From positions 1 through 24,809 of IMG/VR virus record IMGVR_UViG_3300027907_000410: a DNA stretch of 24,809 nt. One strand, given 5' to 3'. The notes under the pieces are model-generated. The model did not search any database. It was given only the letters and a program-made list of their open reading frames with translations, and was not told the origin of the DNA. This DNA is from a virus. Positions 3 to 22,393 of the stretch are shown in pieces; position 1 is the first letter of the stretch, and each line of letters begins with the position of its first letter. Both the position numbers and the translations under genes were made by a program.

Positions 3-3191
<3,189 letters not shown>

Positions 3192-3386
3192 GAGTAATAT
3201 CCCTCTACGTCTATTAAAATTCTGCCGTCTGGCGCTTTCCGCCAAACAAGGTGTTTCGGCCATTTGCCGTCGCGGATTTTGGTTCTGATGGCATCGGGGG
3301 TATAGCCCGACTCCCGAGAGAACTGCTCTACGGTCTTGTATCTGACCATGTGCATGCTCCATGCCGCGCGTGGCGGCAGAAGGTGG

Positions 3387-17765: not shown

Positions 17766-18575
17766 TCATAGGGTCTTGAAAGTCAGCGGGAGCTTCCGGT
17801 CGAAAAAGCTTGGATCTGTTGCAATCAATCTGCTGCCTTGTTCACCTAGCGAGACACCTCTGACCGTAAAGTAAGCTCCTTCAACTTTTACTTTCTGGTT
17901 GATCAGTTTTTGCCAGATGTACTTTTCCCCATCTGGCAGTGTATCCCTCATGTCTACTAACCCGATCCCATGCTGCTCACCTACGTTGGTCAATGACTCG
18001 AGGTACAGCCAGCCAGACCACGGACCAGTTCCTTGTTTGACATAGCCAAGCAACCTTTCCTGACGCGGGGGTAGGTTATTCGGTACCCCTTCGATCTTAT
18101 AGTCGGGATCGCCTTCTATGACGTAATCGGCCGAGGTGATAGGGATTTCGCGTGCAAGATCTTTTGCATACTGCAAGGTCCGATCCGTCGCGGCTCCAGC
18201 TTTTTTGAACGCTCCACCAACGCCATCGTTTTTTAGGAAAATCGCGTAAGTTTCGAGGTTTATCTTAGACATAAACAGAATGACATTTCCCGTACGTTCG
18301 CCTTTGAAGTAGCTGTAAAGCGTGTCGTCCATACTGAAGCCGGCTTTTTCAAACGCTTTGTTCATGTACTTGGCGTAAACGTAGGATTGCTCTGGTGTAG
18401 GGATGGCAAATTTTGGCACTCTAGCCATCTCGCTGTTGAAGTCATCGTCGTAGTAGTCCTTGAAGGCATTTACGATCTTTTGCGCTGAGACCATGTCCAA
18501 TGGGGCTGCGGGTTGAGCTGCGTGAACGACGGTGCACAGGAACAGTAGGCAGGACGATATGAGCAATCGAAACAT
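17766..18575 (-). CDS. Secreted (periplasmic) hypothetical protein, 269 aa
   Basis: A signal peptide MFRLLISSCLLFLCTVVHA ends at a likely AxA-type site (VVHA-AQ), so the protein should be exported. The mature domain has a helical first half (KIVNAFKDYYDDDFNSEMAR, AGFSMDDTLYSYFKGERTGN) and a beta-rich second half (KVKVEGAYFTVRGVSLGEQG) resembling a small OB-like barrel. I do not recognise the family. AAGGA lies eight bases before the ATG at 18575. Leftward cargo gene with its own terminator hairpin. Confidence 0.8.
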   Translation of the reverse strand: MFRLLISSCLLFLCTVVHAAQPAAPLDMVSAQKIVNAFKDYYDDDFNSEMARVPKFAIPTPEQSYVYAKYMNKAFEKAGFSMDDTLYSYFKGERTGNVILFMSKINLETYAIFLKNDGVGGAFKKAGAATDRTLQYAKDLAREIPITSADYVIEGDPDYKIEGVPNNLPPRQERLLGYVKQGTGPWSGWLYLESLTNVGEQHGIGLVDMRDTLPDGEKYIWQKLINQKVKVEGAYFTVRGVSLGEQGSRLIATDPSFFDRKLPLTFKTL

Positions 18576-18765
18576 GGAGGCATCCTTGAGGTACGGCTGG
18601 CAAATCTCCATGCGGCCAGCCCATGATTCAGGGCGCTTTCAATCCACCGAAATGGAGGTTGAATGCGTGAGGAGTCACCATGGGATCGGCCGGATGTAAT
18701 CAATCTTTAGCTTTCTACAGTGCGCTGAGAGTTCGAGGTGTTTGGGAGGAGCGGGACAGAAAATG

Positions 18766-18789
18766 AAAAAGCCCGGCGCGAAGCCGGGC
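18766..18789 (-). terminator. Rho-independent terminator (GCCCGGC type)
   Basis: GCCCGGC-GCGAA-GCCGGGC followed by T5 on the minus strand; no gene ends directly upstream of it. Confidence 0.75.
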
Positions 18790-18870
18790 TCTCTATCGAT
18801 GGGCCAAATCCCTCTGACTGAGTGCATTGTGCTGGGTAGGTGTGACGATGGCGTGACAGGGCGGATACGA

Positions 18871-18892
18871 AAAGCCCGGCGCAGGGCCGGGC
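18871..18892 (-). terminator. Rho-independent terminator (GCCCGGC type)
   Basis: GCCCGGC-GCAGG-GCCGGGC followed by T4 on the minus strand, 25 bases past the DUF3037 stop. Confidence 0.75.
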
Positions 18893-18917: not shown

Positions 18918-19796
18918 TCATGCAACTTTCCCTGACCACCAGTTGATCGTTTTAATGGCGAGATCATCGGTTGAAGGCGCTTGGATGATTTCCACTCCAG
19001 AGCGCATCAATCGGTCTAATTGTCTACCGATAACATCTGAAACCCTTTTGAACTCTACAGGATCCATGCCGCTTTTTTCTGTCGGAACGAGAATGGAAAG
19101 AGCTCCTTGGCGGTCCGTATTGCTGGTTACAAGCATTAGATCTGAAGAAGCCTGAAGTATGTTCTTTTCAGCTACTACTGGACTTTTATACCAAACCGAA
19201 ACGACTGATCCTACCGCTGATGAGCTAAGAAGTGGTGCATCGACATCAATGGTTTTTCCATTCTTCAAGCTGAGCCGATAACGTTCTTCCTTAATAATCG
19301 ACGACGCTGAGAGCTCCATGCGCTGCCTCATGATTTGGAATAACCCGTCGCGGAGCTTAGGTGTCGACGTGTACCTGAAGGCGTTGTTTTTTGCTGAGCC
19401 TTTAGGATGGCCCAAAGTAACCACATCTTCGAAAAACTCGTTGACCACCGCCTCTGCTGACTCCCCGGCAGCAAACAGCTCCGGTCCCAGACGAACGTTG
19501 CCACTAATTTCATCCGGTAAACCAGCACGGCTTTCGTACACAAACTCTTCGATATCATGAAGATAATGTGTCAGCTCGCGAAGGTTCACCCGCTCGCCAT
19601 ATAGACATTTGAGTCTGTCAAACGTGTCTAACATGCGGACTTCTACGCGGCCCTGGTAACAGAAAGCAACGCCTACATTGAGGAATTCCCCTGCGTCCGT
19701 ATCCATGCACATTTGAATCGTGCGCCAATGACCGCTCACACCCTGCCGGGCGGAGCTTTCTCCGATCTTGTGCTTTATCTTGGCGAAGATGGTCAT
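18918..19796 (-). CDS. DUF3037-like partner of the HipA-like kinase, 292 aa
   Basis: The N-terminal third (SGHWRTIQMCMDTDAGEFLN, then VGVAFCYQGRVEVRML) fits the DUF3037 pattern, in which a 'GEF(V/L)N(I/V)GV' strand is characteristic. The rest is a mixed helical domain with an FFEDVVTLGHPKG segment and no catalytic motif I can name. Its ATG overlaps the stop of the HipA-like gene (ATGA), so the two are made together. From memory, HipA-like kinase genes with a DUF3037 gene directly after them recur in many bacteria, which supports the call. Biochemical role unknown; it could be the kinase's regulator or substrate. Confidence 0.68.
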   Translation of the reverse strand: MTIFAKIKHKIGESSARQGVSGHWRTIQMCMDTDAGEFLNVGVAFCYQGRVEVRMLDTFDRLKCLYGERVNLRELTHYLHDIEEFVYESRAGLPDEISGNVRLGPELFAAGESAEAVVNEFFEDVVTLGHPKGSAKNNAFRYTSTPKLRDGLFQIMRQRMELSASSIIKEERYRLSLKNGKTIDVDAPLLSSSAVGSVVSVWYKSPVVAEKNILQASSDLMLVTSNTDRQGALSILVPTEKSGMDPVEFKRVSDVIGRQLDRLMRSGVEIIQAPSTDDLAIKTINWWSGKVA

Positions 19797-20668
19797 ACCA
19801 TAAGGCCTACTGCCGAATTATAGTGTTGCGGTTCGAGCCGAGAAGATAAGAAGTCTAGCACCTGTGTGACTTCATCTTGCTCCAAAAATTCAGCAAGAAG
19901 CTCTCTCGCTTGACTTTCTGCTTTGCTCTTCCATGAGACTGAAAATGTGTTGTAGGCGAGTCCGCGAGCAGATCTGATAGGGGTCCTGCTGCTCCAATTT
20001 GGTACCAAGCTGTCGATCAGCTCTTTGAGTGCATTACGCAACTCCAGCGGGCTCGTTGCTAATCTGCTTGGATCCCATGAGGGGTGCCTGAAAAGCCTGC
20101 CGTGGTCAATCAATACTAATGAGCCTTCGGCATTCCCAAGCAGGTTCCCTAGGTGGCGATCAGTGTTCTCCGTCCATTCATCAAACGACACTATTCCCGG
20201 CGTCGATTTGTTCGAGGCCAAATCTGCAGCAATACGGGATAGGTTTTTTTGCCTTAAAAAGTCAGGTCCGTCCGAAGGGCAACCCACGACCAAGCTTGGA
20301 TGTCTCATATCCTCGCTGAACCAAGCTAGGAATTCTGCTTGATCGCAGCCTTCCGGCATGGAGTTTGACAGCTTCTCTAGAACGGCCTCAGGTATTTGCT
20401 CTCGCCGCAAAACGATAACACCTGCGGTGCCAGGGACTACTAAACCGCAGGCTTTTGCGAGTACGTAGCCTAATGCCTCGCTTACAATAGATCTGTTCTC
20501 AGCTAGATTGTCGTCATTTAACGCAATTTTGTTTGGAAACGGTTTTATATAGCAGCGAAAAGACGCATCGCCAACGGCAACTTTTCCTCTAAATATTGCA
20601 TTCTCACCTTTCGAGTCCACCTCGCGGAGCTGGCCGCGGAAGGCGTCGCCACCAAGCACTATAAACAT
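19793..20668 (-). CDS. HipA-like protein kinase, 291 aa
   Basis: Resembles the stand-alone HipA-like kinase family (HipA_2). Kinase features are Lys42 in CYIKPFP, a helical lobe with SEALGYVLAKACGL, the catalytic loop WTENTDRHLGN (Asp170, Asn175) and the metal-binding Asp188 in LIDHG. The long HipA N-terminal subdomain and any HipB antitoxin are absent. AAGGA lies seven bases before the ATG at 20668. It is translationally coupled to the DUF3037-like gene. It sits between the repressor operon and PL, like rexAB in lambda, and reads in the same direction as the repressor. Protein or small-molecule phosphorylation is implied by family; the target is unknown. Confidence 0.78.
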   Translation of the reverse strand: MFIVLGGDAFRGQLREVDSKGENAIFRGKVAVGDASFRCYIKPFPNKIALNDDNLAENRSIVSEALGYVLAKACGLVVPGTAGVIVLRREQIPEAVLEKLSNSMPEGCDQAEFLAWFSEDMRHPSLVVGCPSDGPDFLRQKNLSRIAADLASNKSTPGIVSFDEWTENTDRHLGNLLGNAEGSLVLIDHGRLFRHPSWDPSRLATSPLELRNALKELIDSLVPNWSSRTPIRSARGLAYNTFSVSWKSKAESQARELLAEFLEQDEVTQVLDFLSSRLEPQHYNSAVGLMV

Positions 20669-20742: not shown

Positions 20743-20979
20743 TCATTCAACCTTCCCCCGCACAATCCTTCCCGCCTTCACCTCTTCCGCATACCCCGCC
20801 AGCCGCTCCTCATCCCCCTGAAACACCTTGATCATGCGCAGCAAGGCTTGGGCGTCGGCTTCATTCCCGGCCGCGCTCAATCGATCTGCGATCCGAACCA
20901 GCTCCACGGCTGACCACTTGAGGTCCGAGGCAATACCCTGGAGGTTACGACGCAAATCATCCAGCAACAGTGTGGTCAC
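20743..20979 (-). CDS. Small helical phage protein, 78 aa (paralogue of the next gene)
   Basis: Begins MTTLLLDDLRRNLQGIASDL and ends RLAGYAEEVKAGRIVRGKVE. The last 20 residues match the upstream neighbour's RLMEYAEEVRVGRVSRSKAE, and both begin with an LRR(D/N)L helix, so the two are tandem paralogues. The start is a GTG overlapping the neighbour's stop (GTGA). It is downstream of the repressor in the same operon and so probably expressed in the lysogen. Function unknown. Confidence 0.72.
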   Translation of the reverse strand: MTTLLLDDLRRNLQGIASDLKWSAVELVRIADRLSAAGNEADAQALLRMIKVFQGDEERLAGYAEEVKAGRIVRGKVE

Positions 20980-21203
20980 TCAGCTTTGCTCCTGCTTACT
21001 CGGCCGACCCTTACTTCCTCGGCATACTCCATCAGTCGATCAACATGCTCGTGCAGCTTTCCGATCTTCTCCATGGCTGCCAAGAACTCAGGTCCGGCGA
21101 AGGTCTTTGCCTCGCGGAAGAGGTCGTGCGCGGTATCTTCAAGAGTGGAGGCCGCGGCTTTCAAATCACGGCGCAGTTCCTGGTTGGGTTTGGTGAGGGG
21201 CAT
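20976..21203 (-). CDS. Small helical phage protein, 75 aa (tandem paralogue)
   Basis: Begins MPLTKPNQELRRDLKAAAST and is almost all helical, ending with the same YAEEV-x-G-R motif as its downstream paralogue. The ATG at 21203 lies two bases past the repressor stop and lacks a good ribosome site, so translation is probably coupled to the repressor. The alternative TTG at 21227 is less likely. Function unknown; co-expression with the repressor suggests a lysogeny-stage role. Confidence 0.7.
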   Translation of the reverse strand: MPLTKPNQELRRDLKAAASTLEDTAHDLFREAKTFAGPEFLAAMEKIGKLHEHVDRLMEYAEEVRVGRVSRSKAE

Positions 21204-21205
21204 GG

Positions 21206-22078
21206 CTATACCAGTTGGGCATTCCAAACCAGGAGCACTCGAGCCTGGATGTAGGTCTCGTCAGCTCTGATCGTTTGCGGCGGATGTCTATCGTTGTCAG
21301 AAATCATTTTGATCTGATCATCGCCAATCCACTGGAGGCGCTTGATGTACAGGTGGCCCTCCCAAGAGAACATGTAGATCCCATCCCCGATGAACTCACG
21401 AATGCTGATGTCGACCAGGAGCGGGTCGCGGTGCTTGATCGTTGGCGCCATCGACTGACCCCATCCGGTCACCATCTTGAGGTGGAAGTGCTCTTTGAAC
21501 TCGACGCCCATCTCGCGCAGGTGCTGAGGGCTTACTCGCACGTCCTGGAGCAATTCCGGGTAGTCGTGCGGTATTTGCCCGCCACCCATAGCGGCACGGA
21601 CGTCGTAGTGCGCGATCCACACCTCGTCACCCATGACTCCGGGTCGGTAGTAGTCGATCTCGATGGCACCACCGCCATCGAGATCGACTACCGCTGCAAG
21701 TAACCGGCGGCGGGCCGTATCCGAAAGCCCTTTTCCCTGTTTTGCAAGCATCTGGCGAACCATGTCAGCAGCAGATGCACCTTGCGAGTAAGTGTTCGCT
21801 TGTTCCGAAGCGCTCGCGAGTCCACTGATCTCTTTCGCCAGTCGCTTGCTGAATTTCTCGATAGGCACGTCAAGCAAGCGCGACAGCACTGCCGCGAACT
21901 TCGCATTCAGCGGATTGGTGCCGTTCAGATACATCGCCACAGCGGCTGCGGAAATATCCGCTGCTTCCGCAAGGCTTGCTTGAGTCAGACCAAGGGCGTT
22001 CTTTTTCGATACGAAAATCGCCTTCGCGGCGTCGCACTCAGCTTTTAACTCTGGGGAAAGTTCTTTCTTTTTGCTCAT
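21206..22078 (-). CDS. cI: CI-like prophage repressor (HTH plus S24 peptidase fold)
   Basis: Lysogeny repressor of 290 aa. An XRE-type helix-turn-helix lies at residues ~29-52 (ALGLTQASLAEAADISAAAV). The C-terminal S24 domain has the catalytic Ser209 in GQSMAPT and Lys246 in YIKRLQW, and should dimerise. No Ala-Gly or Cys-Gly pair occurs anywhere; the region where cleavage would be expected reads YDVRAAMGGGQ. Self-cleavage after RecA activation is therefore doubtful. It is divergent from cro, and three 15-bp operators lie between them. One of these (OR3) lies only nine bases from its start, fitting autoregulation. Confidence 0.9.
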   Translation of the reverse strand: MSKKKELSPELKAECDAAKAIFVSKKNALGLTQASLAEAADISAAAVAMYLNGTNPLNAKFAAVLSRLLDVPIEKFSKRLAKEISGLASASEQANTYSQGASAADMVRQMLAKQGKGLSDTARRRLLAAVVDLDGGGAIEIDYYRPGVMGDEVWIAHYDVRAAMGGGQIPHDYPELLQDVRVSPQHLREMGVEFKEHFHLKMVTGWGQSMAPTIKHRDPLLVDISIREFIGDGIYMFSWEGHLYIKRLQWIGDDQIKMISDNDRHPPQTIRADETYIQARVLLVWNAQLV

Positions 22079-22087
22079 CCGTGAAAT

Positions 22088-22154
22088 TTAACCGTTGGTT
22101 AATTTATTTGCGGCAACCGGCGGTATTGCTAGAAAACTAACCGGCGGTTAATAT
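22088..22154 (+). promoter_or_regulatory. OR region: PR promoter with three operators
   Basis: Operators are OR3 TTAACCGTTGGTTAA (22088-22102), OR2 GCAACCGGCGGTATT (22113-22127) and OR1 CTAACCGGCGGTTAA (22137-22151), with centres 24-25 bp apart. PR has -35 TTGCTA (22126-22131) and -10 TAATAT (22149-22154) with a 17-base spacer, overlapped by OR2 and OR1. OR3 lies in front of the repressor gene, where PRM must be. The order mirrors lambda OR. Confidence 0.85.
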
Positions 22155-22186
22155 TGATCTTGAAACCACCATTCGAGATTTCCAGA

Positions 22187-22393
22187 ATGAAGCAGATCCC
22201 ACTTACAGAGCTGGTTGCTACGAAAGGGCAGGCCTTTGCGGCCAAGGCTCTTGGGGTCAGCCCTGCCGCAATCAGCAAAGCCGTCGCGGCCGAGCGAAAC
22301 ATTTCCGTCACCTGCAATCCGGACGGGACTTTTGAAGCGCATGAGCTCAAATCCTTCCCGGCGCAAGCGTCTCCAAAGAAGTCAGCCGCCTAA
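22187..22393 (+). CDS. cro: Cro-like repressor, 68 aa
   Basis: Small helix-turn-helix protein (MKQIPLTELVATKGQAFAAK, then ALGVSPAAISKAVAAERNIS) of the lambda/D3 Cro type, which would bind the same operators and turn down early transcription. It is the first gene after PR, divergent from the repressor. The ATG at 22187 is chosen because it gives the canonical Cro N-terminus; the ribosome site is weak (GAG at nine bases). Confidence 0.85.
   Translation: MKQIPLTELVATKGQAFAAKALGVSPAAISKAVAAERNISVTCNPDGTFEAHELKSFPAQASPKKSAA

Follow-up and report, generated by a model that had tools for sequence, protein, structure and literature searches.

Which role does a HipA-like kinase play in a prophage when its gene is coupled to that of a DUF3037 protein and lies behind the gene of the lysogeny repressor? 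This question is raised by two genes on the minus strand of a viral sequence of 24,809 nucleotides (positions 1 to 24,809 of IMG/VR record IMGVR_UViG_3300027907_000410), which is referred to here as the window. An earlier note on this DNA, made from the sequence alone, had proposed that both genes form a toxin or anti-phage system expressed in the lysogen from the position that rexAB occupies in lambda, with the DUF3037 protein as regulator, sensor or substrate. The kinase gene (19793..20668, minus strand) encodes a protein of 291 amino acids of the HipA/PI3K fold (phrog_11186) in which K42, E64, D170, N175 and D188 are intact. Lys42, Asp170, Asn175 and Asp188 occupy precisely the positions given in the earlier note, and K42, E64, D170, R171, N175, D188 and G190 are invariant in an alignment of 21 homologous kinases with identities down to 26%. 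In the PDB, the AlphaFold2 model of the kinase (pLDDT 87.8) matches HipA in first place (2wiu, E=3.5e-5; also 3fbr and 3tpe), among PI3/PI4 kinases and with TM-scores of only about 0.4. The kinase family and the catalytic residues claimed at the outset are thus confirmed by the alignment and by the HipA fold of the model.

The partner gene (18918..19796, minus strand) encodes a DUF3037 protein of 292 amino acids (phrog_14695), the putative antitoxin. Both open reading frames are present as the earlier note described them and share four nucleotides, ATGA. Their assignment to HipA_2 and DUF3037 is supported. The window proteins themselves stay below the curated Pfam cut-offs, the kinase with E-values of 3.6e-4 for HipA_2 and 7.2e-5 for PI3_PI4_kinase and its partner with 9.5e-4 for DUF3037 (19.8 bits, the cut-off being 22.6), whereas 20 of the 21 DUF3037 homologues match PF11236 (E<=1; best 7e-5). 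The matches to the PHROGs are stronger than those to Pfam and relate the kinase to phrog_11186 (3e-19, residues 4-202 of 291) and its partner to phrog_14695 (3e-23, residues 10-286 of 292), both of which are families of unknown function. The model of the DUF3037 protein has no significant match in the PDB, and its fold therefore gives no hint of function. Sub-significant Foldseek matches of its C-terminal part (E 0.14-0.3), which may be due to chance, are to XPF/Mus81-type nuclease folds and to the Can2 nuclease.

The surroundings of the pair are those of a phage immunity region. A cI-type repressor of 290 amino acids with HTH_3 and Peptidase_S24 domains (21206..22078, minus strand) is encoded by what would be the first gene of the lysogenic operon. 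It is followed by the genes of two small phrog_6388 proteins, one of 83 amino acids (20976..21227, minus strand) that overlaps the end of cI and one of 78 amino acids (20743..20979, minus strand) located between cI and the cargo. The cro gene is divergent from cI (22154..22393, plus strand), and CII-like and Ant proteins and an integrase are also encoded in the window (Pfam, PHROGs). Directly after the DUF3037 gene there is a terminator-like hairpin (18874..18892, minus strand), and a second one with a stronger stem is found at 18766..18794 (minus strand). No sigma-70-like promoter was found on the minus strand of the window. Because of the order of the genes on the same strand and the downstream terminators, the kinase pair is expected to be co-transcribed with cI in the lysogen. 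Past the terminators, a gene at 17766-18611 encodes a protein of 281 amino acids with a likely signal sequence, no PHROG match and no Pfam match above the cut-off. At the other side of the window, a catalase-peroxidase gene (24-3362), the 3' end of which is complete, borders on the gene of the phage integrase with a slight overlap. Some host DNA is therefore probably part of the window, and the att site may be located at the end of the catalase-peroxidase gene.

A search of viral contigs with a phrog_6388 protein retrieved 46 contigs, most of which have a repressor-sized gene before phrog_6388, and what comes after it varies by phage. Cargo selected by hand from eight of these contigs matched PADLOC families in seven cases, a non-random choice that gives no estimate of frequency. 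The cargo of the slot includes PDC-M53A, PDC-M32A, PDC-S42, PDC-M24B, an AAA ATPase of the AriA/PtuA kind, an RmrA-like M78 peptidase (the AAA and M78 matches are broad) and a second HipA_2 and DUF3037 pair (L123), as well as PIN in other phages. The arrangement of cI, phrog_6388 and variable cargo is thus supported, at the level of gene content, as a hotspot in about 45 viral contigs (L112-L157) whose cargo is often defence-like, and the position proposed by analogy with rexAB stands, as cI and both phrog_6388 genes precede the window pair and the corresponding slot of about 45 other prophages contains exchangeable cargo. This slot is a place in which to seek new prophage defence genes. Among its cargo there are also unannotated gene pairs, e.g., one encoding 354 and 195 amino acids in L138, with no Pfam match. 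The second pair (L123:4428-6100) scores above the Pfam cut-offs and is unlike that of the window, which suggests independent capture; its type of DUF3037 protein had no match among named phages.

Defence by kinase-DUF3037 pairs is already known, although recent, and the window pair is a divergent member of this group. In Retron-Sda1, defence against Bas51 is lost when HipA is deleted, and the parts of the retron can be dispensed with (PMC12548924). As in the window, this is a two-gene module in which, in the case of Retron-Sda1, the kinase is needed for defence and DUF3037 neutralises it (PMC12548924); the pair adjoins a retron RT there and a phage repressor in the window. Because deletion of DUF3037 is toxic in Retron-Sda1 (PMC12548924), the DUF3037 protein of the window is best read, by analogy, as the antitoxin of the kinase, which narrows the three roles initially considered for it. 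The name of the Retron-Sda1 pair in PADLOC is PDC-M66 (PMC12548924). In DS-6, a DefensePredictor system renamed HipAD, a catalytic-residue mutant of the kinase loses defence, and AF3 predicts a contact between A and B (PMC13092281). A paper about prophages of E. coli, Brenes & Laub 2025, is given as the origin of HipAD (PMC13092281). As in the window, the HipAD/DS-6/PDC-M66 systems lack HipB and consist of a HipA-like kinase with conserved catalytic residues and a DUF3037 protein encoded after it. In contrast, the window family has no detectable DUF1829, occupies a fixed place behind cI and mostly overlaps an S24-less tailed repressor. Matches of the window pair to PDC-M66A and PDC-M66B are weak and cover partial stretches (E 0.0091 and 0.0013, respectively), and DUF1829 was detected in none of the 21 DUF3037 members searched with Pfam (E<=1). 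DUF1829 is a feature of DS-6B; nowhere did we find it named as a defining trait of the PDC-M66 group at large. On account of the weak PDC-M66 scores and the undetected DUF1829, the pair is filed here as a divergent relative of HipAD/DS-6/PDC-M66 and not as DS-6 itself.

Resemblance to other systems is partial. Lambda rexAB and RexABpp of P. putida are, like the window pair, cargo located directly downstream of CI in a prophage, and two small genes separate CI from RexABpp (PMC12894663). Nevertheless, no sequence relation between RexAB and the window pair was found (their Pfam and PHROG matches are to other families), and the mechanism is different. The kinase of phage 933W is also a prophage kinase, but of another kinase family. 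We know of no DUF3037 partner of this protein. It is expressed in lysogeny and produces abortive infection upon HK97 superinfection (described in PMC8008677). The window kinase is shorter than E. coli HipA, and a plain HipBA system is ruled out, the upstream genes being those of the S24 cI and the two phrog_6388 proteins with no HipB-type gene.

The explanation that we consider likely, its mechanism included, is that the pair is a divergent toxin-antitoxin or anti-phage module of the HipAD type, which a lambdoid prophage of the Pseudomonas type has in its cI operon as exchangeable cargo. In this mechanism, of which we infer the expression, the trigger and the target, the lysogen would co-express the pair with cI and the DUF3037 protein would keep the kinase inactive. 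Infection by another phage would then free the kinase, which would phosphorylate a host or phage target and stop growth or phage production. The dependence of defence on the kinase and the neutralising effect of DUF3037 are carried over from the distant homologues, and it is these published members (PMC12548924; PMC13092281) that support the original proposal of a toxin or anti-phage function. No report on the trigger or the target of kinase-DUF3037 defence was found in the literature.

An additional layer of complexity appears when the homologues of the pair are compared. Homologous pairs were drawn from one named phage (D14P, BK061589), four bacterial genomes and viral contigs, mainly the latter, so that prophage settings are favoured. 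In 33 of 33 loci, which amount to about 21 distinct ones at the protein level because several are near-identical and not independent, the repressor, kinase and DUF3037 genes follow each other in this order on one strand and the last two overlap by four nucleotides; the conserved pairing anticipated for the two proteins is therefore borne out. In 26 of the 33, the repressor is short and ends in a distinctive tail, and S24 was detected in none of the 13 of these repressors run against Pfam. The open reading frame of this repressor overlaps the start of the kinase gene by 8-29 nucleotides, most often 23. The remaining seven loci, to which the window belongs, have an S24 repressor (six by Pfam; the seventh, L033, equals L012 in all measures) separated from the kinase gene by a gap of 31-595 nucleotides. 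No repressor with both S24 and tail was seen among the loci compared. In quick FastTree trees of the pair, S24-type loci appear to nest among tail-type loci more than once (the window clade, L012 and L057). Relatives of phage D14P have the same flanks as this phage, together with a longer, S24-sized repressor and no pair. To judge from these gene orders, module and lysogeny repressor are linked across the family, the former being located just behind cI in the prophages examined and mostly with a dedicated tail in place of S24. The earlier note overlooked this tie to the phage repressor itself. Its statement that HipB is missing is correct, as the operon of the window contains no HipB-like gene; in most relatives, however, there is an HTH partner, namely a cI that lacks S24 and overlaps the kinase gene. 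In HipBA and HipBST the gene of an HTH protein also lies beside that of a HipA-family kinase; the HTH partner in tail-type loci is, in contrast, the phage's own cI, and DUF3037 is neither HipB nor HipS. Our literature search found no description of a HipA kinase linked to cI, and the order cI-kinase-DUF3037 with an S24-less tailed repressor overlapping the kinase appears to be new.

The tail common to the S24-less repressors is conserved, comprises about 70 amino acids and has the consensus AxxLAxxASPRSRxxLxRIAxAAxxGRLTExDxxLLDQIAxRFE...HxRLREKL. Every tail contains [S/T]PR[S/T], with invariant P and R, and the boundary between head and tail was placed at this motif, which was selected after the sequences had been seen. 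With this boundary, median pairwise identity is 18% for the HTH heads and 46% for the tails. All 14 HTH heads match the head of a cI of ordinary length, with up to 72% identity, and the similarity is confined to the head, ending where the tail starts or close to that point. For D14P, the head has 55% identity with residues 1-101 of the S24 cI encoded in the window. Distances between tails correlate with those between kinases (r=0.75, p=2e-4; 0.87 without the outlier L040) and between DUF3037 proteins (r=0.59), and distances between heads are uncorrelated with those of tails (r=0.05) or kinases (0.01). Since the heads match S24 repressors while the tail co-varies with the kinase and not with the head, the natural reading is that tail, kinase and DUF3037 look like an exchangeable cassette that is joined to whatever HTH head and swapped against S24.

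The tail is not a diverged phrog_6388 protein (hhalign probability 0.8%) nor a known domain, with no Pfam match above the cut-off over the tail and no PDB match below E=0.08. A tblastn search of 50,697 phage records with one tail found only D14P, which carries the pair. A tail-only pattern scan of viral contigs, for which a closer subset of five rows was used because the alignment of 13 rows was too diverse, found 13 contigs, all already known pair carriers, with strict patterns that diverged tails would escape. In 391 genomes of the order, a tail profile found the one known pair-bearing genome, three weak matches and a diverged tail in L074. The latter (L074:1180-1704) is the C-terminus of a phage-type repressor, and kinase and DUF3037 genes are absent within the 3 kb read. 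A diverged form of the tail thus exists elsewhere, whereas the close form accompanies the pair.

The coupling between tail and repressor suggests a role beyond defence, and this counts against the explanation that we favour, as do the low PADLOC and Pfam scores of the window pair, the failure to detect DUF1829 and the search of the minus strand in which no sigma-70-like promoter was found. The pair could be part of the lysis-lysogeny switch, with the kinase or the DUF3037 protein binding or phosphorylating the repressor (its tail in the tail-type phages) and thereby setting repressor activity and induction, in replacement of or in addition to control by RecA and S24. We regard this as a tentative and clearly less probable alternative. 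It would account for the replacement of S24 by the tail on heads common to S24 repressors, for the co-variation of tail and kinase and for the [S/T]PR[S/T] motif with its invariant P and R in every tail. The core of the tail is also constrained as protein, since codon positions 1, 2 and 3 of its first 44 codons differ in 36, 28 and 71% of comparisons, respectively. Moreover, there is a precedent in hex of phage 434, an open reading frame on the PRM transcript that, as in the tail-type loci, apparently overlaps the repressor gene, and whose product controls the repressor (PMC3564112). However, Hex blocks RecA-stimulated cleavage and is not a kinase, and the 434 repressor keeps its protease domain (PMC3564112). 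The last residues of the tail (RLREKL) encode the AGGGA-type ribosome-binding site of the kinase, and this stretch may be conserved as DNA; with the start and the ribosome-binding site of the kinase inside the repressor gene, the overlap alone would make tail and kinase travel together. In addition, the tail may merely be a dimerisation domain, and the window phage and others retain S24 and lack the tail. In its most far-reaching form, which is equally doubtful, there would be a class of repressors in which the S24/RecA damage sensor is replaced by a tail of about 70 amino acids that serves as the target or docking site of kinase and DUF3037, so that lysogeny would be controlled by phosphorylation and the defence module would double as an induction switch. 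If true, tail-type phages might induce, or refuse induction, on superinfection instead of DNA damage.

A further point against a switch is that homologous pairs function or occur without any cI. Distant pairs are indeed found with repressors, in a prophage with an S24 cI (L096), behind a cI-like gene in an A. baumannii record (L162) and behind phage repressors in the Moraxella phages Mcat18 and Mcat22. In Mcat22 (L160, 2689-4822), a 139-aa HTH-like protein whose gene overlaps that of the kinase has a C-terminus that weakly resembles the tail. Pairs without an adjacent repressor have type I R-M-like genes as neighbours in L095 and L097 and are also found on an E. coli plasmid of 3.5 kb, as expected of defence or toxin-antitoxin modules. 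This plasmid (L161; NZ_AP027872, 3489 bp) has as its only listed genes those of a HipA-family kinase, a DUF3037-like protein and a VbhA-family antitoxin, and has relatives in Salmonella, Klebsiella and Raoultella. A scan of 369 genomes of the class with PF11236 found mostly chromosomal pairs of HipA_2-type kinase and DUF3037 from other branches. The PDC-M66B profile found the pair in one of four genomes known to carry it and is therefore too remote for a survey, and pattern scans overlook diverged members. Since some pairs lack an adjacent repressor, the pair can probably function by itself in defence or as a toxin-antitoxin module, and its link to cI would be an adaptation of phages.

The same plasmids, which carry pairs and little else, bear on another alternative, namely that the pair is an addiction module of the toxin-antitoxin kind that serves to stabilise the prophage without itself acting against phages. 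Location in a prophage and the toxin-antitoxin behaviour of a distant member agree with this, but distant members give kinase-dependent protection from phages and other defence candidates fill the slot, and we regard it as improbable. Modification of host physiology in the lysogen by a regulatory kinase and its partner that are neither toxin nor defence (lysogenic conversion) is very improbable, for although the kinase fold is common to lipid and small-molecule kinases, homologues exert toxicity when DUF3037 is missing and give defence when it is present.

In all, the likely defence module of the window belongs to a family in which, in many prophages, kinase and DUF3037 are fixed behind the lysogeny repressor and mostly welded to it, S24 having been swapped for the tail on several unrelated HTH heads. 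This tie to the repressor connects prophage defence with the lysis-lysogeny decision directly and in a testable way, the repressor is a natural candidate substrate for the kinase, and tail-type prophages may be a class that does not respond to RecA/SOS.
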